From Acidimicrobiia bacterium (lineage in GTDB: Bacteria; Actinomycetota; Acidimicrobiia; IMCC26256; JAGPDB01): a stretch of DNA of 64,000 nt. Positions 20,636-40,156 of this stretch are shown one piece after another. A model generated the notes under the pieces. The model had not been told where the DNA came from and did no database searches. It was given only the letters and a program-made list of their open reading frames with translations. Position 1 is the first letter of the stretch, and every line of letters starts with the position of its first letter. Location: the NCBI GenBank assembly GCA_018057765.1, contig JAGPDB010000003.1, positions 1-64,000 of the forward strand, in the 5' to 3' direction. Position numbers and translations under genes: made by a program.

Positions 20636-21898
20636 ATGGCAACAAGCGACATATATAGGGCACCAATTGGTACAAAAGATATTTTTGGTTTTGAGGCACG
20701 TAAGTGGCAGACTCTGATTAATATTTTTGCCAAGCAGGCACATTTATATAACTATGACCTAGCAATGACACCAGTATTTGAACACATTGAAGTATTTAAT
20801 CGTGTGGGTGAAGATACTGATGTTGTTTCAAAGGAAATGTATGACTTTTATGATAAAGGCGATCGTCATATTGCATTGCGTCCTGAAAGCACTGCGGGCA
20901 TAGCCAGAGTAGTTGCACAGCATAGGCCGATTTCACCTTTCAAAGCTTGGTATATGAATCAGCATTTTCGATATGAACGTCCTCAAAAAGGTAGGTTGAG
21001 AGAGCATCACCAATTTGGTATTGAAGCTATTGGTATTGATGATCCAATGATAGATGTTGAGATTATTGCTTTTGCTCATAATTTCTTTAAGTCATTGGGT
21101 GTGACTCAATATATAATAGGAATTAATTCAATGGGGGATAGTGAAGCGCGCGCAAAACACATGATTGCCTTGAGAGAGTATTTTATAAAGTATGTTGATT
21201 TACTTGGCGAAGATTTTGCGTTACGTGTTGAAAAGAATCCATTGCGTATTCTTGATACTAAAGATCCTGCATGGATTGAGATAGCAAAAAATGCACCCCA
21301 GATTTTAGATTTTTTATCTGAGCAAAGTATCACAGATTTTGAGGTAATAAAAGAGTCCTTAACAAATTTAGGCATACCGTTTGAAGTAATCCCGACTCTT
21401 GTTCGTGGTTTTGATTATTATACAAATACAACTTTTGAATTTATATCAAGTTCTATAGATGCAGCACAAGCAACAATATGTGCTGGTGGTCGTTATAACA
21501 AATTAGTAAAAGAAATGGGTGGTGAAGAAACACCCGGTATTGGTTTTGGGTTGGGAATCGAAAGATTGTTGATGGTCATAGAAGCGGAAAAACTTGAAAT
21601 TCGAACACGAATATTAGACGTTTTTATTGTTGATTTAATAAATTCCTTTGAGTCTAAAAATTATTTTCAAAATATTAATTCTGATTTACGCAACAGCGGT
21701 ATTAGCGTGGATAATTGTTTCGGCATTAAATCAATGAAAGCTTCGATGAAACAAGCTGATCGAAGTGGTGCGAGGTTCGTAATTATTTGTGGCGAGAATG
21801 AATGGGATAAGAAAGTTATTACACTAAGAAATATGTCATCAGGCGAACAATGCGAAATGACTACAGATATGATCATCGATTATTTAAAAAAACATTAA
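20636..21898 (+). CDS. hisS: Histidyl-tRNA synthetase
   Basis: A class II synthetase of 420 residues. Motif 2 is MNQHFRYERPQKGRLREHHQ. The histidine-specific motifs are LVRGFDYYTNTTFEF and GGRYNKLV, and motif 3 is GIGFGLGIERLLM. The C-terminal anticodon-binding domain starts near residue 325. The N-terminus IGTKDIFG differs slightly from the usual RGTxD. The gene sits 177 bp after rel, as expected for actinobacteria. Confidence 0.96.
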   Translation: MATSDIYRAPIGTKDIFGFEARKWQTLINIFAKQAHLYNYDLAMTPVFEHIEVFNRVGEDTDVVSKEMYDFYDKGDRHIALRPESTAGIARVVAQHRPISPFKAWYMNQHFRYERPQKGRLREHHQFGIEAIGIDDPMIDVEIIAFAHNFFKSLGVTQYIIGINSMGDSEARAKHMIALREYFIKYVDLLGEDFALRVEKNPLRILDTKDPAWIEIAKNAPQILDFLSEQSITDFEVIKESLTNLGIPFEVIPTLVRGFDYYTNTTFEFISSSIDAAQATICAGGRYNKLVKEMGGEETPGIGFGLGIERLLMVIEAEKLEIRTRILDVFIVDLINSFESKNYFQNINSDLRNSGISVDNCFGIKSMKASMKQADRSGARFVIICGENEWDKKVITLRNMSSGEQCEMTTDMIIDYLKKH

Positions 21899-21942: not shown

Positions 21943-22977
21943 GTGGCCGACAATAACTACGTGAAGTTATTTGATTTTATCCGCCACTATTTTAAGAATA
22001 CGAAAAAGCAAAATAAGCATGTAACAAATGAAGAAGGTTCGTTCTTAGTTGAAGTTTTAGTTGCAGCATCTATTCTTTTGATACTTGCTGCTTCAGCAGT
22101 ATCACATCTGTCAACACTTACTAATATAAAGATACAAACAGAAACCAGAGATCGTGCTCTAACTTTAATGACCTCTCTACATGAAAATATGCAATCTGCG
22201 GGATGCGGGTTTGATGTAGGGGTTACAAAAATTGTAGTAAAAGATGTTGTAAGTTTAGCAACAACAACACCATGGTCAAGAGTACTAACATGTGCTTTTT
22301 CTACAATAGCCGCTACTAGAAATTCTCCCTATGCAGGTATAATGATTGATGAAGATGGAAATGCGGTATTAGATAATATCTATAATGATAATCTATATTT
22401 TATTAGCGCTTTTTGTTATGATAGAGCACCTGATGGTAAATGTGAATTAGGTGATCAGGAGTTTATACGACCAGTTATTTTGAATGATTCTGGTGTTGAA
22501 GTTAAATATGAAGTAAAAGTGAATTATTGGTTTGAGAAAACTGGAACAACAAATTCTTCTACAGCGTGTACAGGTGGTACTAATACCATTGATAAGGTTC
22601 AACAGCCAGATGTTATAGCAAGAAAAGTTACACTAAGTTGGAAAAATATTAGTTTAGCAAGTGGCAAAGAAACTATAAGTGTAACCAAACGACAGAATAT
22701 ACCTCAAGATTCAATTGCCTTTTCTTCATCGACTAGGGTAGGTGGTTATTTTAATTCTGGTTCTACAGTTGTAATGTATCCAGATATTATTGATGGAAGT
22801 ATACAAGTTAGTAGTCTGCAAGTAACTCGCAATACTCTAAGCAATGGTGGAAGTAATTGTATTTGGTTTCCCTTTCTTGTTAAAAATGCACCCACTCCAA
22901 CTTTGTTTCAAGATGGTGCTACTCCAAAGTCTTCAGCAACTTTGACTGTTGCACCCTTAGGAAATGGTGCAATTTGA
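21943..22977 (+). CDS. Type IV pilin-like/pseudopilin protein 1
   Basis: A 344-residue protein with a class III signal peptide. A basic leader ends at Gly32, then SFLVE gives the expected Glu at +5, followed by a hydrophobic helix of about 20 residues. Prepilin peptidase should cut after Gly32. The large C-terminal domain has several Cys (such as SACTGG and NCIWFP) that may form disulphides outside the cell. The start is a GTG; no better upstream start is seen. It overlaps the next pseudopilin gene by 4 nt. Which pilin class it belongs to cannot be told. Confidence 0.8.
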   Translation: MADNNYVKLFDFIRHYFKNTKKQNKHVTNEEGSFLVEVLVAASILLILAASAVSHLSTLTNIKIQTETRDRALTLMTSLHENMQSAGCGFDVGVTKIVVKDVVSLATTTPWSRVLTCAFSTIAATRNSPYAGIMIDEDGNAVLDNIYNDNLYFISAFCYDRAPDGKCELGDQEFIRPVILNDSGVEVKYEVKVNYWFEKTGTTNSSTACTGGTNTIDKVQQPDVIARKVTLSWKNISLASGKETISVTKRQNIPQDSIAFSSSTRVGGYFNSGSTVVMYPDIIDGSIQVSSLQVTRNTLSNGGSNCIWFPFLVKNAPTPTLFQDGATPKSSATLTVAPLGNGAI

Positions 22978-23810
22978 TGACTTCATTCATACTTAAATTT
23001 AACGAAAACAAAAGAGAACAGAATGGCTTTTCTTTAATTGAATTAATGATAGCAACCTTAATATCTGTAATTGTATTTGGATTTGCCGTAACATTTATTG
23101 TTTCATTTTCCTCTGCTTCATACCAAGCTTCAGCAAAGAAAGATGTTACGACTCAAGGACGGGTTGCTATGTCTCGTGTCTTAAAAGATGTTTCTGGTGC
23201 ATCCAATATTCCAACTTGTAATCAATATAAGACACAACAAGCAACTTTAGCCGCTTCAACCGATACTAATTATTTCAAAAATAATCCTGAAAAATGTGAT
23301 GAAATCATTAATGGTTCTCAGGTGATATCTGTAGCTGGTGGTTCAACAGTATGTTGGTATATAAGTGATGTTGCACAAAACACTTCTATTATTTATCCAT
23401 CGAAATTTGCATGTTTATTTGCAGGAAATAGTACAACATCAACCTGTATAAAAAGTAACCAGAATGATCCAGATACCTTATATTATAACGAATGTAATAC
23501 TGGCTCAAGTACACCAATTGCTAACTCGTCGAGTATCGTGGTGAATTTGGGACCACATAAAGAACTAACTTCAAGTCCAGGTAGAATGCCGGTACGCGAA
23601 CCACTCTTTTCATATTTCAACTATGATAATTCTCCTTTTGATTCAGTTAATTATAATAAAATTTTAAAGATTACAATGCAAGTGAAGTTATCTTACGAGA
23701 ATGGCAAAAATATTGGTGGTAATAAAGATTATTCAACTTATGATTTCTCGCAAACCATACAACTCTCTGGAATGAAGGCCTATTTAGAAACGGGTGCTTA
23801 TGGAAATTAA
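22974..23810 (+). CDS. Type IV pilin-like/pseudopilin protein 2
   Basis: A 278-residue protein with prepilin motif NG/FSLIE (cleavage after Gly18, Glu at +5) and a hydrophobic N-terminal helix. It resembles PilW/GspJ-type minor pilins by its N-terminus and its place between a PilV-like and a PilX-like gene. The exported domain contains paired Cys residues. The ATGA overlap with the previous gene and overlap with the next indicate one operon. Confidence 0.82.
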   Translation: MMTSFILKFNENKREQNGFSLIELMIATLISVIVFGFAVTFIVSFSSASYQASAKKDVTTQGRVAMSRVLKDVSGASNIPTCNQYKTQQATLAASTDTNYFKNNPEKCDEIINGSQVISVAGGSTVCWYISDVAQNTSIIYPSKFACLFAGNSTTSTCIKSNQNDPDTLYYNECNTGSSTPIANSSSIVVNLGPHKELTSSPGRMPVREPLFSYFNYDNSPFDSVNYNKILKITMQVKLSYENGKNIGGNKDYSTYDFSQTIQLSGMKAYLETGAYGN

Positions 23811-25467
23811 AAATTTATTCCGACGAAATTTTAACAAAACAAAAAACAATGAATCTGGTTATGCGTTAGTTGCTGTATTAGGCATTGTAATTCTTACTAT
23901 TGGTATATTATCTTCAATGACTTTGATGACACTTTCTGATGTACAGAGTAGTTCTAAGAACCGTGCTGTTTTGGAAGCAAGACTTAAAGGTGAATCTGGA
24001 CTAGACACTATTTATTCCGCAGTAAATGCCAGTAAGTCATTAAACATTACTGAGGCATTAGGTTCTATTAAAATTGGATCTACAGAAGTAGTACCTACCT
24101 CATGTACACCAACAGTAACTACATCAGGAAAAGTATTAACTAAAACTTATTGTTGGGGACCACAGATCTCTATTGCCCCAACTGGTGATTTATCTATATC
24201 TTGTCCCGATGCAACAAAAGAATGTATACGATTGCGTTTAAAAAGTTTGGTAACGTCCGCTACTGATTATGACCTGGGTATAACTGGAAATTCAGGTGAT
24301 AAATTTTCTAGTGATTTGACAAATGAAGAATATATTATAGATATAGCTGTAAGAACTAAGTGTAAATCAAATTTGCTAGTGAAGGATTGCACTTATTCAC
24401 GAATGCAGCAAAATATTAGTAAACGTAAATATGTTGAATATGCTTCTATAAGTCAAACTGAGACAGTTGCTGACTCTGTAATATTAAATTCAGGCGTACC
24501 TTTGCCCGCTACAGATTCTTCATTCTCGCGTATTGGTACATATTCAGGACAAGACGTATTCAATGGTAACATTCACTCGAACTCAAGCGTAATACTTGCA
24601 TGTAATGGTTTTCGACTATTCAGTGATAAATATATTACGTCAACTGGCATAGCTGGAAATTCAGCTAAAGGAAATCCATCAATTTCAGGTTGTAATAATG
24701 GGCCAACTTCTGGTAACGCAAAGGAATCAACACGACTAGCTGTAGTTTTACCAGACAGAGTTGGAGATCAAAGCGCTGGAAACTTACAACAAATTGCAAA
24801 AAATGAAAATTCTACAAAATATAATTATCGATATAACACAAATTTAACATTTAGAGATAATGGAACTTTTGACGCACTAGTCGGTGGTACAACTAAGAAT
24901 GTGCCTATGCCATCTAATGGTGTTATTTTTTTAGAGCAGGGTGGAAGTATTTCAGGAACAGTGAAAGGAAAAGTAACTATTGCATCAGCACCTGGACCTA
25001 ATGCTGATATATTGATAAGTAATAATCTCGTATATCTTGATCCTACAAAAGATTTATTAGGTGTATATTCTGGAAAAGATATAATTATTGCCTGTATACC
25101 TAGTGGAAGTGCATGTCGAGATATAACTGTTAATGGTTACTTGAAAGCAAATACTGATTATACTTCTGTACCCTCATATCTAGGAACAATATATACGCAA
25201 CAATGGGCAACTTCTGCTCCTGGTGGGAGATTTACTTTATTTGGAGCTATGGAATCCTATAATAGAGGAACTTTTGGCTCAATAGAGTCAGTTTCTAACG
25301 GTAATGTAACTAATGGTTTTATAAAATATGTTGTTTTCGATAATAGATTACTATATGAACAGCCACCATCGATGTTACGAGATGGTACTGTACCTTTTAT
25401 AAGATCTAGTATTAAGGATATCCCCTGTGATAATGCTTGTACTCGCTTTGAACAAACAAACCCATAA
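23800..25467 (+). CDS. PilX/GspK-like large minor pseudopilin
   Basis: A 555-residue protein whose N-terminus ESGYALVAVLGIV has the prepilin Gly (Gly20) but no Glu at +5. This is typical of tip-type PilX/GspK minor pilins. The rest is Gly/Ser/Asn-rich and predicted beta-rich. Near the C-terminus VFDNRLLYEQPP resembles the YDPRL-PP signature seen in many PilX-like proteins. A GTG at 23794 is an alternative start. With the two preceding genes it could form a minor-pilin tip complex that primes pilus assembly. The assembly ATPase and platform protein are not in this window. Confidence 0.78.
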   Translation: MEIKNLFRRNFNKTKNNESGYALVAVLGIVILTIGILSSMTLMTLSDVQSSSKNRAVLEARLKGESGLDTIYSAVNASKSLNITEALGSIKIGSTEVVPTSCTPTVTTSGKVLTKTYCWGPQISIAPTGDLSISCPDATKECIRLRLKSLVTSATDYDLGITGNSGDKFSSDLTNEEYIIDIAVRTKCKSNLLVKDCTYSRMQQNISKRKYVEYASISQTETVADSVILNSGVPLPATDSSFSRIGTYSGQDVFNGNIHSNSSVILACNGFRLFSDKYITSTGIAGNSAKGNPSISGCNNGPTSGNAKESTRLAVVLPDRVGDQSAGNLQQIAKNENSTKYNYRYNTNLTFRDNGTFDALVGGTTKNVPMPSNGVIFLEQGGSISGTVKGKVTIASAPGPNADILISNNLVYLDPTKDLLGVYSGKDIIIACIPSGSACRDITVNGYLKANTDYTSVPSYLGTIYTQQWATSAPGGRFTLFGAMESYNRGTFGSIESVSNGNVTNGFIKYVVFDNRLLYEQPPSMLRDGTVPFIRSSIKDIPCDNACTRFEQTNP

Positions 25468-25578: not shown

Positions 25579-27384
25579 ATGTTAAGAACGCACTATAACA
25601 ATGAAACAGCCAAAGTTAGTGTTGGCGAAAAAGTGGAAGTTTGTGGATGGGTAGATGCTCGCCGTGATCATGGCGGAATTATATTCTTTGATTTGAGAGA
25701 TCGTAGCGGTATCGTCCAAATAGTAGGAGACCCAAGTATAGAAGGTATTGAATCATTAAAAGATTTACGTCTTGAATACTGCGTAAGAGTAATAGGGAAA
25801 ATTGCTACGCGTCCAGATGGTACAAAGAATGATGAATTGGAAACCGGTTCTATAGAAATACATATAGAGGAACTAGAAATTTTAAATGCTAGTGATTCAC
25901 TTCCTTTTCCATTAGATAATGCAGAAAATGTAGACGAGAATTTGCGATATCAATACCGATATTTAGATTTACGTAGACCAAGGCTACAACGCAATCTACA
26001 AATTAGAGCAAAAGTGAATAAGGCAATTCGTGATTCATTTAGTGAGCAAGGCTTTACTGAAGTAGAAACACCTCTATTAATTGCGTCAACTCCAGAAGGA
26101 GCAAGAGATTTTGTTGTACCATCGCGCTTAAGCCCAGGAACCTTTTATGCGCTTCCTCAATCACCTCAATTGTTTAAGCAATTACTAATGGTTGGTGGTG
26201 TAGATAAATATTTCCAAATTGCGAAATGTTTACGAGACGAAGATTTACGTGCAGATCGCCAATTTGAATTTTCTCAACTAGATATGGAAATGAGTTTTGC
26301 AAATCAAGAAGACGTATTAGCTTGTGTCACGACAAGTTTAAATGCAATTGTGCAAAGTGTAGCCCCAGATGTTGAAACCAGCTTTGATACTATGACATGG
26401 CATAAGGCAATGGATGAATATGGTATTGATAAACCAGATCTGCGTTTCGGAACAAAGCTAATTGACTGTACGCAAGTATTTGTATCTACAGAGTTCAATG
26501 CTTTTAAAGCACCAACGATAAAAGCACTTTGCCTTGATGGTCAAGGGTCTATCTCTAGGTCGAATTTAGATTCACTTACAGAAAAAGCAAAAAAACTTGG
26601 TGCCAAAGGCTTAGTTTGGATGCGAGTTACTTCTGACGGTCTAGATTCACCAATCTCTAAATTTCTTTCACCAAAAGAAATATCAGAATTAATAAAAACA
26701 ACTAATGCAAATGAAGGCGACTTATTATTGATCGTAGCTGATCAATGGCAACAAGCATGTGAAGTATTGGGAACCTTGCGCAACGATTTGTTGCGACCAA
26801 ATGTTTCTGACCCTCCTTTAAAGTTTTTATGGATTACTGACTTTCCACTATTTGAGGGTTTATCAAAAGATGGAAAACCAATACCAGCACATCATCCTTT
26901 CACGATGCCCCACGTTGATGATTGGGAGAAACTATCTAAATTGGAAAAACAAATTGCAGCGGGTGAGGAACTCGATGAGATATTTGTGCGATCTATTAGG
27001 TCACAGAGTTATGATGCTGTATTAAATGGTTGGGAATTAGGCTCAGGTAGTGTTCGTATTCATAGGCGAGATATTCAATCCCAAATATTTGCAATTTTAG
27101 GGATGGACGAAGAGCGACAAATGAACCGTTTTGGTTTTTTACTCGATGCATTCAAATTCGGTGCTCCTCCACATGCTGGTTTTGCTTATGGGATTGATCG
27201 AGTTGCAGCTATTTTAGCTGGTGAAGAGAATATACGTGAAGTGAGTGCTTACCCTAAGACTCAAACTGGACATGATCCTTTAAGCAAAGCACCTAGTGAA
27301 ATTGATGAAGAACAGCTCAAAGAACTAGGGTTAAGCATACGCGAAGAAGTTTTAAAAGCAAGACGAGCCGGGAAACAGGGATAG
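25579..27384 (+). CDS. aspS: Aspartyl-tRNA synthetase
   Basis: A bacterial-type class II AspRS of 601 residues. It has an N-terminal OB anticodon-binding domain (VCGWVDARRDHGGIIFFDLR) and the class II core with FREEDLRADRQ-like CLRDEDLRADRQFEFSQLD. A bacterial GAD insertion domain lies around 290-410, and motif 3 is FGAPPHAGFAYGIDRV. A GAGGA ribosome-binding site lies upstream. Whether it also charges tRNA-Asn, as in organisms relying on GatCAB, cannot be judged here. Confidence 0.97.
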   Translation: MLRTHYNNETAKVSVGEKVEVCGWVDARRDHGGIIFFDLRDRSGIVQIVGDPSIEGIESLKDLRLEYCVRVIGKIATRPDGTKNDELETGSIEIHIEELEILNASDSLPFPLDNAENVDENLRYQYRYLDLRRPRLQRNLQIRAKVNKAIRDSFSEQGFTEVETPLLIASTPEGARDFVVPSRLSPGTFYALPQSPQLFKQLLMVGGVDKYFQIAKCLRDEDLRADRQFEFSQLDMEMSFANQEDVLACVTTSLNAIVQSVAPDVETSFDTMTWHKAMDEYGIDKPDLRFGTKLIDCTQVFVSTEFNAFKAPTIKALCLDGQGSISRSNLDSLTEKAKKLGAKGLVWMRVTSDGLDSPISKFLSPKEISELIKTTNANEGDLLLIVADQWQQACEVLGTLRNDLLRPNVSDPPLKFLWITDFPLFEGLSKDGKPIPAHHPFTMPHVDDWEKLSKLEKQIAAGEELDEIFVRSIRSQSYDAVLNGWELGSGSVRIHRRDIQSQIFAILGMDEERQMNRFGFLLDAFKFGAPPHAGFAYGIDRVAAILAGEENIREVSAYPKTQTGHDPLSKAPSEIDEEQLKELGLSIREEVLKARRAGKQG

Positions 27385-34402: not shown

Positions 34403-35221
34403 GTGAACGTTAGTATCGATTCTCTTAACTCAGACCAATGGCTATATGTATGGGTGTTTTTGAGCGCACTTTTTGGTTTAGCCATAGGTTCTTTTTTAAA
34501 TGTTGTTATCTGGAGGGTACCTTTGAACATGTCCCTCATAAAAGGAGGATCTATTTGTCCTAAGTGCAGAAAAGAAATATCGGCAAAAGAGAATATTCCT
34601 CTTTTTAGTTATATTTTTTTAAGAGGAAAATGTAAGAACTGTAAAGCAAAAATATCTAAACAGTATCCCGCCGTTGAATTATTAACTTCAATAGTATGGG
34701 TAATAACAACTTGGCGTATTGGATTACATTTATATACTTTTGGGTTTCTAATATTTTTTACGGGTCTTATAGCTTTAAGCACAATAGATATCAAAACTAA
34801 ATTGCTCCCAAATAAAATTGTCTATCCAACTGGTATTATTTTTGTTGTCATAATATCGAGTTGGGCAATAGCTACTAATAATATAGAAATTTTGCGTAAT
34901 TGTCTAATAGTTGGGATCATCTATTTTCTGTTTCTTTTTGCTATTTGGTTCGCTTCAAATGGTAAAGCCATGGGATTTGGTGATGTTCGCTTATCTTTCT
35001 TTTTGGGTTTCGCTATGGGGTTTTACGGGTTTATGATTAGCTATGCGGGTATGTTACTTTCCTTCATATTGGGTGCTGTTATAGGCATTTTTATTGCTAC
35101 TTTAACTAAATCAGGAAGAAAAATGAAAATTCCATTTGGCCCATTTTTGGCTTCTGGAACAATAATTGTCATTTGGTGCGCGTCAATGCTCTCACATATC
35201 ATAGAATTACCTAATGTTTAG
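34403..35221 (+). CDS. pilD: Prepilin peptidase (type IV leader peptidase, A24)
   Basis: A 272-residue polytopic membrane aspartic protease that cleaves and N-methylates prepilins. The N-terminal cytoplasmic domain has two CxxC zinc pairs (CPKCRKEI and CKNCKAKI). The catalytic Asp residues lie in TIDIKTKLLPN and in FGDVRLSFFLG. The start is GTG after TAAGGAA. It likely processes the pseudopilins encoded at 21943-25467. Its position between aroE and aroC is also found in mycobacteria. Confidence 0.94.
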   Translation: MNVSIDSLNSDQWLYVWVFLSALFGLAIGSFLNVVIWRVPLNMSLIKGGSICPKCRKEISAKENIPLFSYIFLRGKCKNCKAKISKQYPAVELLTSIVWVITTWRIGLHLYTFGFLIFFTGLIALSTIDIKTKLLPNKIVYPTGIIFVVIISSWAIATNNIEILRNCLIVGIIYFLFLFAIWFASNGKAMGFGDVRLSFFLGFAMGFYGFMISYAGMLLSFILGAVIGIFIATLTKSGRKMKIPFGPFLASGTIIVIWCASMLSHIIELPNV

Positions 35222-38515: not shown

Positions 38516-40156
38516 ATGGAAACTCAAACTGATATTGTTCAGTTAGAAACTATGATAAGTGACTTTGAATCGCTTATAGGTGTTAAGAAAATACACAAAA
38601 TTAGTAACCCACAATTAGATAAAATTTTTGATCTTGCAGACGAAATGTTAGCCGATGACCTTCAAGCATCTAAATTATTTATTGAGCTATTTGGTTTGGA
38701 CAGCAGTGGTTTTGAAACTAGCCAATGGTATAAAAAATTCCAGTCCGTCTGGTTAGAAAATGTAAAAGTTATATATAGCGCTTTTAAAAGATTTGAAAAG
38801 GACATTCCAGAATCTACTGATATAAATAAAATGTTCTTAATTTATATATACAGTGAATATAAAGATTTACTTAATCTATTAAGAATGAATTTACCTGAAA
38901 GTAAACTTTCAAGTTTATACAACCGGCTACTTCTTAGAATTTCATCTGAAGAAATCTCTTCAATATTTAATGAATATTCAGAATTTCATTTTATACAACT
39001 AAGAACTGCGATTATAAAAAGAGTTAATCCCCGAGAATTTCTAGAAAGTTATTCACATACATATGAGCTACTGATGGAAAAGTATTTCCTTAAAGGTGTT
39101 GCCCTTCATGGTTTAGTTTCTAAGTCAGTTATCAAGAATATGATTATATTTAGTGCTGATCCTGTTGGTGAGCTTGAAGCTAAGTGTACTATATTTGATT
39201 CTTTAGTGGATAAATATCTTGATGTTGACGATGTGCTTAGGCATCCTTTTGCTAATTTGACTGTGATTAAATCTTTGGTTTTGAGAAATGCGGATCCTGA
39301 AGGTGTTTTGTTGTCTAAGTTTGAGACTTTTGATTATTTGGTTTCTAAGTATTTTGATATTGATGATGCCGCAAAGCATCCGCTAATTAGCATAGGTGTT
39401 ATTAGGTTTTTGGTTTTGAGAAGTGCTGATCCTGAAAGGGATTTGTTGGCTAAGTTTGAGACTTTTGATTATTTGGTTTCTAAGTATTTTGATATTGATG
39501 ATGTTCATCCGTTTACTAATATGACGGTTCTTAAATTTTTGGTTTTGAGAAGTGCTGACCCTGAAGGTGATTTGTTGGCAAAAATCAAAGTGTATAATGA
39601 TCTAGTCAAAGTGTTTCCTGATGATTCTTATCTCGGTGCAATTAAAATTTCTGCATTGAACCAGAACATTAGTCCAAGTATATTTAGAATATATGTAGAT
39701 CGCGCATTAAAACTAAAAGAACATACCGGCTATTCCATGAAATTGTGTTTATACCAAAGTGTTAGAATCCCATTATCTGATGATTTTGATGTATTTATAA
39801 AAAAAGCGATACCTCCGATAGAAAAATATATCAAATTCCTACAGGTAGTACACCCAATATCGTTAGACAAAACATACAGTAATTCTGATTTAGGTTTATA
39901 TGGTTTCTTACCTGATCCTGGAAACGATTTTTCAAGTGATGCTAAAGCCCAAATTGAAGTATTGATCAAAGATGAAATAATTTCACCAAAAGAATTAGAA
40001 GCATTATATTTATATTTTATTGACGATAATTTTGAAGATGCCGCAAATATTTTAGAATGTGAAATTCAAGAATTGGATAGTGCCTTGAAAATTATCCTAG
40101 AAAGGATTAAGACTCTGTCTGCAGAGCCATCGGATACTTACTTAACTCTTGCTTAG
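38516..40156 (+). CDS. Unknown helical tandem-repeat protein with HTH-like C-terminus
   Basis: I do not recognise a family for this 546-residue protein. It is almost wholly predicted alpha-helical. Between about 165 and 370 it holds five copies of a 43-45-residue unit with the pattern ADPEG-LL-KFETFDYLVSKYFDIDD followed by HP-x-VIK-LVLR. Anchor residues are at 179, 223, 268, 313 and 356. Units 3 and 4 share a 53-nt identical stretch. Residues about 486-535 (SPKELEALYLYFIDDN, then AANILECEIQELDSAL) resemble sigma-factor region 4 or a LuxR-type helix-turn-helix. There is no signal peptide. No mycobacterial counterpart lies at this position. Solenoid-type protein binding is a reasonable guess, no more. 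Confidence 0.75.
   Translation: METQTDIVQLETMISDFESLIGVKKIHKISNPQLDKIFDLADEMLADDLQASKLFIELFGLDSSGFETSQWYKKFQSVWLENVKVIYSAFKRFEKDIPESTDINKMFLIYIYSEYKDLLNLLRMNLPESKLSSLYNRLLLRISSEEISSIFNEYSEFHFIQLRTAIIKRVNPREFLESYSHTYELLMEKYFLKGVALHGLVSKSVIKNMIIFSADPVGELEAKCTIFDSLVDKYLDVDDVLRHPFANLTVIKSLVLRNADPEGVLLSKFETFDYLVSKYFDIDDAAKHPLISIGVIRFLVLRSADPERDLLAKFETFDYLVSKYFDIDDVHPFTNMTVLKFLVLRSADPEGDLLAKIKVYNDLVKVFPDDSYLGAIKISALNQNISPSIFRIYVDRALKLKEHTGYSMKLCLYQSVRIPLSDDFDVFIKKAIPPIEKYIKFLQVVHPISLDKTYSNSDLGLYGFLPDPGNDFSSDAKAQIEVLIKDEIISPKELEALYLYFIDDNFEDAANILECEIQELDSALKIILERIKTLSAEPSDTYLTLA
39316..39503 (+). repeat. 53-nt direct repeat pair within the repeat protein
   Basis: The 53 nt at 39316-39368 recur identically at 39451-39503, a period of 135 nt (45 codons). 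More diverged copies lie before and after. Identity at silent positions implies recent duplication or gene conversion. Confidence 0.9.

Follow-up and report, generated by a model that had tools for sequence, protein, structure and literature searches.

A putative minor-pilin cassette between hisS and aspS

The 64-kb window analysed here (positions 1 to 64,000 of contig JAGPDB010000003.1 from an Acidimicrobiia bacterium) carries three overlapping plus-strand genes in the interval between hisS (20636–21898, plus strand) and aspS (25579–27384, plus strand), which we interpret as a minor-pilin cassette. The genes (hereafter referred to as pilV, pilW and pilX) were named by position (I, J and K, respectively), and the names of the housekeeping genes, including hisS and aspS, were read by eye from the translations. 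The first open reading frame (ORF) encodes a pilV-like prepilin (GspI/ComGE position; 21943–22977), which was aligned with 19 relatives; the final glycine of its leader lies at 22036–22038, and the mature protein has 312 amino acids (aa). The second encodes a pilW-like prepilin (GspJ position; 22974–23810; alignment with 18 relatives), with its ATG at 22977 overlapping the pilV stop and the final glycine of the leader at 23025–23027. The third, recognised from its ORF (23794–25467), its motif and its relatives, encodes a pilX-like prepilin of 555 aa (GspK position; 23800–25467) when read from the ATG at 23800, with a GTG at 23794 as an alternative start.

By motif reading, the three genes, which stand in I-J-K order, all encode class III signal peptides, with the cleavage contexts NEEG/SFLVE for PilV and EQNG/FSLIE for PilW (both with glutamate at position +5 of the mature protein, Glu+5) and NESG/YALVA for PilX (alanine at +5). 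None of the 14 sequences in a PilX alignment has glutamate at this position (13 of 15 relatives used, the partial sequences L060 and L064 being left out). In a six-frame search of the window, exactly two ORFs of at least 100 codons had an N-terminal Glu+5 prepilin motif, namely pilV and pilW. PilW scored above the cut-off for N_methyl (PF07963; E-value 3e-6) and TIGR02532, PilV gave sub-threshold matches to ComGE/GspI, and the family search with the window's PilX gave no match above any cut-off. A prepilin peptidase gene, pilD, adjoins aroC at 34403–35221 (plus strand); it was identified from its domains (A24_N, E 8.5e-33; Peptidase_A24, E 5e-12) and from the gene order of relatives. An earlier note, made from the sequence of the window, had described a three-gene pseudopilin cassette at 21943–25467, comprising two Glu+5 pilins and a large PilX/GspK-like protein without this residue, and a prepilin peptidase at 34403. 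The ORFs bear out these coordinates and this reading, the cleavage-site motifs agree with it, and both peptidase domains are present.

Pilus and competence genes elsewhere in the genome

The genome to which the window belongs (G000; 1.76 Mb, 51 contigs, a 97% complete draft) encodes an extension ATPase, a platform protein, a retraction ATPase, a prepilin peptidase and a major pilin. There is one PilB ATPase with MshEN and T2SSE domains, encoded in the same operon as PilC on contig 6. The row concerned (L008:6245–14733) consists of genes for a MinD/CpaE-like ATPase, a 130-aa protein, a 596-aa protein, a PilO-like protein, PilB and PilC, and the 596-aa protein is probably, from its sequence, a fused PilM-PilN. 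PilM and PilO were assigned on the basis of sub-threshold profile matches and position, and a PDB profile search with PilMN gave no match to PilM, PilN or PilO. Two near-identical genes for a 168-aa major pilin (506 of 507 coding bases the same) lie in tandem on contig 1 (L010:13893–15139), just upstream of pilT; this pilT and a second PilT/PilU-family gene on contig 17 both exceed the TIGR01420 cut-off. Adjacent genes on contig 4 encode ComEA and the N-terminal part of ComEC, and DprA is encoded on contig 5. The check that the earlier note had proposed for PilB, PilC, PilT, PilM-O and ComEA/EC turned up PilB, PilC, PilT, ComEA, the N-terminal part of ComEC and, for PilM-O, the PilO-like protein and the probable PilM-PilN fusion. 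That note would have abandoned its reading if the genome lacked both an assembly ATPase and a platform protein; PilB and PilC are both encoded, and this objection therefore fails.

Because three prepilins follow each other in I-J-K order, the third lacks Glu+5, and the genome encodes PilB, PilC, PilT, PilD and major pilins, we consider it very probable that the cassette specifies a complex of minor pilins with which a type IVa pilus (T4aP) is primed and capped, in an actinobacterium that is presumably monoderm. PilD would cleave PilV, PilW and PilX. PilX, which can do without a subunit in front, would occupy the very tip, above PilV and PilW; PilA would then be added below the tip by PilB and PilC together with PilMN and PilO, and PilT would retract the fibre. 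The pilin domain of PilX would carry a beta-solenoid as the ligand-binding face, and the ligand, if it is DNA, would be handed on to ComEA/ComEC.

Some further features of these loci were observed. The MinD/CpaE-like ATPase gene heading the T4aP row (L008:6245–8664, contig 6) has a VVQTP repeat and is interrupted by a run of N; its counterpart in a second genome of the genus (G001) is a single 639-aa ORF (L051:6496–8415). In each of the three genomes of the genus, PilM and PilN are seemingly encoded by a single ORF (L008:9191–10981, L051:3998–5863 and L100:3038–4837), and at locus L081 by separate ORFs. The 1.76-Mb genome also has three Tad-type loci (L010:6005–12709, L014:6899–13844 and L012:3541–7142), the third of which is strongly diverged.

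Relatives and gene order

With the window's PilX alone as the query, 16 of 61 genomes gave a match, its own included, and a profile built from nine relatives yielded 25 named loci. According to their titles, these belong to Acidimicrobiia (10), to Actinomycetes, Actinomycetota or “bacterium” without further assignment (10), to Frankiales (2), to Solirubrobacteraceae (2) and to Nanopelagicales (1). The genes upstream of pilX could be counted in 20 of the loci, the other five being frameshifted or starting at a contig edge: in 17 of them the two Glu+5 prepilin genes lie ahead of pilX, and in three a single one does (L075, L090 and, at a contig edge, L077). Downstream, hisS lies within about 2 kb of pilX in 15 of the 25 loci, with aspS as well in 14, and with a gap of 1.4–1.9 kb between pilX and hisS in L068 and L071. 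In five other loci aroC lies downstream of pilX, with pilD in between in four, and the remaining five have none of hisS, aspS or aroC nearby.

The cassette stands in a row with pilB, pilT or pilC in L081, L082, L092 and G001. The row of L081 reads pilB-pilT-pilC-pilA-pilV-pilW-pilX-pilD-pilM-pilN-pilO-(189 aa)-aroC-aroKB-aroQ (pilM, pilN and pilO named by eye). Given this pilD-to-aroC arrangement in relatives, the pilD-aroC-aroKB-aroQ row of the window is most simply interpreted as a relic of an L081-type cluster. The cassette itself would be a piece of such a cluster that moved beside hisS-aspS in the order to which the window belongs, the direction of the move being our inference.

Within that order, 58 genomes were searched: 39 matched the PilX profile and 44 the MshEN profile, with both in 36, PilX only in three (two of them weak), MshEN only in eight and neither in 11. 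All 23 genomes with PilX matches below E 1e-20 had MshEN. This co-occurrence speaks for the tip-complex reading. Among the aligned proteins, at E ≤ 0.01, PilX_N (PF14341) was detected in 11 of 23 PilX sequences and DUF4900 (PF16241) in six of 23, the window's PilX matching neither; CarboxypepD_reg was detected in 15 of 20 PilV sequences and CBM96 in one (E 4.9e-62), and no Pfam domain, including these two, was found in the window's PilV. By far the longest PilV is encoded by a pilV-like gene (L082:3468–5801) in a metagenome-assembled genome of Actinomycetota (Dino_bin32). At a guess, this is the gene whose product matches CBM96.

Predicted structure of PilX and its likeness to ComZ

An AlphaFold2 model of PilX was built from 23 sequences (in a further PilX alignment, 22 of the 25 loci were used, the frameshifted L080, L083 and L085 being left out). 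In the model as drawn, a pilin sheet (143–220) is followed by a solenoid (residues ~250–515 from the ATG at 23800, corresponding to 24547–25344, plus strand) and a last strand (533–541). As drawn, the two final strands of a GspK-like sheet would flank the solenoid, in a model in which the pilin sheet mostly has a predicted local distance difference test (pLDDT) score <50. Residues ~341–430 form the sole region with high pLDDT values (79–92). The top Foldseek match was Thermus thermophilus ComZ (6qvi; E 6.4e-7, probability 1.00, 533 alignment columns), followed by FfIBP (E 0.015). With VIA, ComZ aligned over 327 residues (model positions 58–543; Z 13.4, root-mean-square deviation (rmsd) 9.2) and ice-binding solenoids over ~209–516 (Z 12.0–13.7); the next rows were a Caldicellulosiruptor adhesin domain (Z 7.0) and Streptococcus sanguinis PilA (Z 6.1). 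Among the matches listed, ComZ is the sole one spanning both the pilin domain and the solenoid. The AlphaFold2 models were trained on a set older than the 6qvi structure (2019), but not older than all of the ice-binding structures.

The model therefore predicts a large ice-binding-type beta-solenoid head on the PilX pilin, and PilX is likely to be a ComZ-like tip pilin. ComZ is a GspK-like pilin with glycine at +5, in which an FfIBP-like solenoid is inserted between the final two strands; it binds DNA and has a GspI-like pilin as its partner, according to the available part of the report describing it (PMC6561018). PDB profile searches with PilX, PilV and PilW detected neither GspI, GspJ or GspK nor ComZ; PilW matched pilin helices only (best E 5e-4), PilV weakly matched transthyretin-like and similar domains, and a viral structure library gave nothing for the PilX model (best E 0.23).

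Variation of the tip within the genus

Two further genomes of the genus were compared, G001 (96% complete, 6% contaminated) and G002 (94% and 2%, respectively). Between the window and G002, the neighbouring proteins are 74% (aspS), 68% (rarA), 62% (alaS), 60% (mltG and hisS), 48% (yqgF) and 43% (a 120-aa protein) identical, and the cassette proteins 38% (PilV), 30% (PilW) and 37% (PilX) in full alignments (34, 25 and 32% by BLAST). PilO is also poorly conserved (40% identity to G001 and 36% to G002), and low identity is therefore not peculiar to the tip genes.

The cassette occupies two sites in these genomes. In G001, the hisS-aspS interval, where two contigs overlap by 55 bases, contains no cassette; it has 868 bases with an antisense open frame, the best cassette match being E 0.77, and the cassette instead lies directly upstream of the minD-pilMN-pilO-pilB-pilC row. 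At this operon site, the genome of the window contains 124 bases without a cassette. G002 has one cassette at hisS-aspS and two versions at the operon site, of which the first has 141 identical bases in common with the operon contig, and the second adjoins the same outer neighbour gene, its contig breaking off within pilX. A tree of 25 PilX sequences, which left out the partial one from contig 89 of G002, placed the four full-length sequences of the genus in one group (100/100), divided into a hisS-aspS type (100/99) and an operon type (99/96). An old duplication followed by losses is the simplest reading of these sequences from three draft genomes.

The two operon-site versions of G002 are 94.6% identical over 520 aligned bases, which take in the start of the outer neighbour, the intergenic sequence and the first part of pilV. 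In 60-base steps, the identity amounts to 90–100% in the shared part and 35–72% beyond it. The two PilV proteins remain alike, with two differences, as far as residue 68, close to where the hydrophobic segment ends (the cleavage glycine is residue 40); judging from these sequences, the exposed heads of the pair have changed and the anchor has been kept. The pair could stem from two strains sharing a bin, or from a duplication and a subsequent exchange. A rather doubtful but possible generalisation is that in actinobacteria the pilus tip is an exchangeable receptor cassette, in which PilX as a ComZ-like receptor for DNA or another ligand and modular PilV and PilW heads, located at two chromosomal sites and recombining precisely behind the PilV transmembrane segment, would provide populations with alternative tips for one machine, probably under selection by phages or partners.

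Function of the tip and alternative readings

Several findings weigh against the reading of the cassette as a ComZ-like tip complex of a T4aP, or against DNA as its ligand. No H-type subunit (FimU/GspH) was seen, N_methyl at E ≤ 1 matching only the two pilA, pilW and pilV, a search that a diverged H could escape; PilO lies below its cut-off (E 0.0025), and PilM was detected in a relative only (E 0.042). The association of the PilX and MshEN profiles (Fisher p 7e-5) takes no account of kinship, and the remaining 16 of the 39 PilX-positive genomes gave weak matches, mostly to the N-terminal part only, and may have other PilX-type proteins instead. ComEC (L066:10250–11548; 432 aa, Competence domain) is represented by its N-terminal part, with no match to the C-terminal metallo-beta-lactamase part. 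The PilX model has a mean pLDDT of 57.6 and a predicted template modelling score (pTM) of 0.50; values for its pilin sheet are mostly <50 (79–155, 161–175 and 188–195) and reach 52–60 in the last strand, and the Foldseek fit to ComZ is loose (template modelling (TM) score 0.30, rmsd 10.7). PilX profiles did not retrieve the ComZ sequence from the PDB at E 1 or E 10, and the PilV model (pLDDT 45.3) is uninformative past the helix. Finally, an adhesin or a phage target would explain the rapid divergence of the heads as well as, or better than, a general DNA receptor.

The last point bears on an alternative that concerns the DNA half of the interpretation and to which we give slightly less than an even chance: the tip may be an adhesin whose PilX solenoid and PilV head attach to glycans, particles or neighbours; the fold in common with ComZ would then be a shared scaffold without a part in DNA binding or uptake. 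The CarboxypepD_reg and CBM96 domains in the PilV proteins of relatives, the strong head differences within the genus and between the two G002 versions, and the Caldicellulosiruptor adhesin domain as the next solenoid match all argue for it, as does the S. sanguinis PilA-PilC tip, which the available text of PMC9934059 describes as a glycan-binding modular pilin complex. Against it stand the absence of a Pfam domain from the window's own PilV, the coverage of both pilin domain and solenoid by ComZ alone among the listed matches, and the presence of ComEA, the N-terminal part of ComEC and DprA, although these are common genes. Net charge (+3 for the window's mature PilX; -14 to +7 for the 25 tree sequences, leader parts included) is no guide to DNA binding. 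DNA and a surface or glycan are about evenly balanced as PilX ligands: the likeness to ComZ, with ComEA, ComEC and DprA, favours the former, and the domains of the relatives' PilV and the variability favour adhesion. The earlier suggestion of adhesion or DNA uptake is accordingly plausible, the ComZ fold match providing a lead for DNA without deciding the matter.

The remaining alternatives place the cassette in another machine. The I-J-K order with a Glu-less K is common to GspI-J-K, and the earlier note had likened the cassette to tip complexes of both type IV pili and type II secretion. Of these likenesses the second is the weaker, no secretin having been found in the 97% complete draft by a search that was positive in six of 14 control genomes (GspC, GspL and GspM were not searched for), and two PilT/PilU-family ATPases exceed the cut-off, as in T4aP. 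A type II secretion pseudopilus tip is thus very improbable, and was rejected on the secretin result. A search for PilY1 gave no match in the genome, but the family also matched none of the 14 controls, making the result uninformative. That the genes encode minor pilins of a Tad (T4c) system might be suggested by the three Tad-type loci of the genome, but a TadE/G-like gene exceeds the cut-off (PF13400) in one of them, the window's contig has no T2SSE or T2SSF match, and in L081, L082, L092 and G001 the cassette accompanies T4aP genes; this reading, rejected on gene neighbourhood, has hardly any probability.

Comparison with known systems

The T4aP tip complex preferred here belongs to a known kind. 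In GspI-GspJ-GspK of type II secretion systems and in PilHIJK/FimU-PilV-PilW-PilX of T4aP, the I-J-K order is the same, with Glu+5 in I and J and none in K; here, by contrast, no H subunit was found and K has a predicted solenoid head. The I and K proteins of the window are much larger than their counterparts in those systems. A minor-pilin tip complex capped by a Glu5-less subunit is established, as far as the available part of PMC10191384 goes. A close parallel is the T. thermophilus set of pilA1-pilA2-pilA3 and comZ, which, in the accessible description (PMC6561018), likewise combines a large Glu5-less GspK-like pilin bearing an ice-binding-type solenoid with further minor pilins, in a bacterium that has, like this one, a T4aP machine with ComEA and ComEC. 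The present case differs in that the host is an actinobacterium, no secretin was found, there are three minor pilin genes rather than four and no sequence match is detectable; the likeness to ComZ is known by predicted fold alone, the place of the solenoid in PilX coming from a weak model. The S. sanguinis PilA-PilB-PilC tip resembles the cassette as a monoderm T4aP tip with modular minor pilins, but has other head domains, whereas the window's PilX is GspK-like with a solenoid (PMC9934059, available text).

According to the part of PMC6916266 available, studies of type IV pili in Actinobacteria have dealt with pili of the Tad type. Gene sets for both T4aP and Tad occur in one lineage, as here, in the free-living UBA5794 Acidimicrobiia (PMC12008989); the gene set described in the accessible portion of that report lists PilY1 and no minor-pilin cassette. 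A literature search, which did not extend to most subscription journals, retrieved nothing on an actinobacterial solenoid tip or on variable heads, and no mention of DUF4900. What is new is therefore not the kind, since Glu5-less tip complexes and the co-occurrence of T4aP and Tad in Acidimicrobiia were known, but the occurrence of a predicted solenoid tip among actinobacteria and the variability of the heads. The locus suggests that an uncultured lineage of actinobacteria possesses a T4aP whose tip is ComZ-like, and raises the question of whether a Thermus-type DNA receptor also works in bacteria that have no secretin. If confirmed, variable heads carried by an otherwise constant machine would illustrate how small bacteria alter the binding partners of their pili.

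Outside the cassette, the window contains a 546-aa ORF (38516–40156) in which internal repeats of ~45 residues, around LVLR.ADPE and KFETFDYLVSKYFDIDD, were seen by eye.

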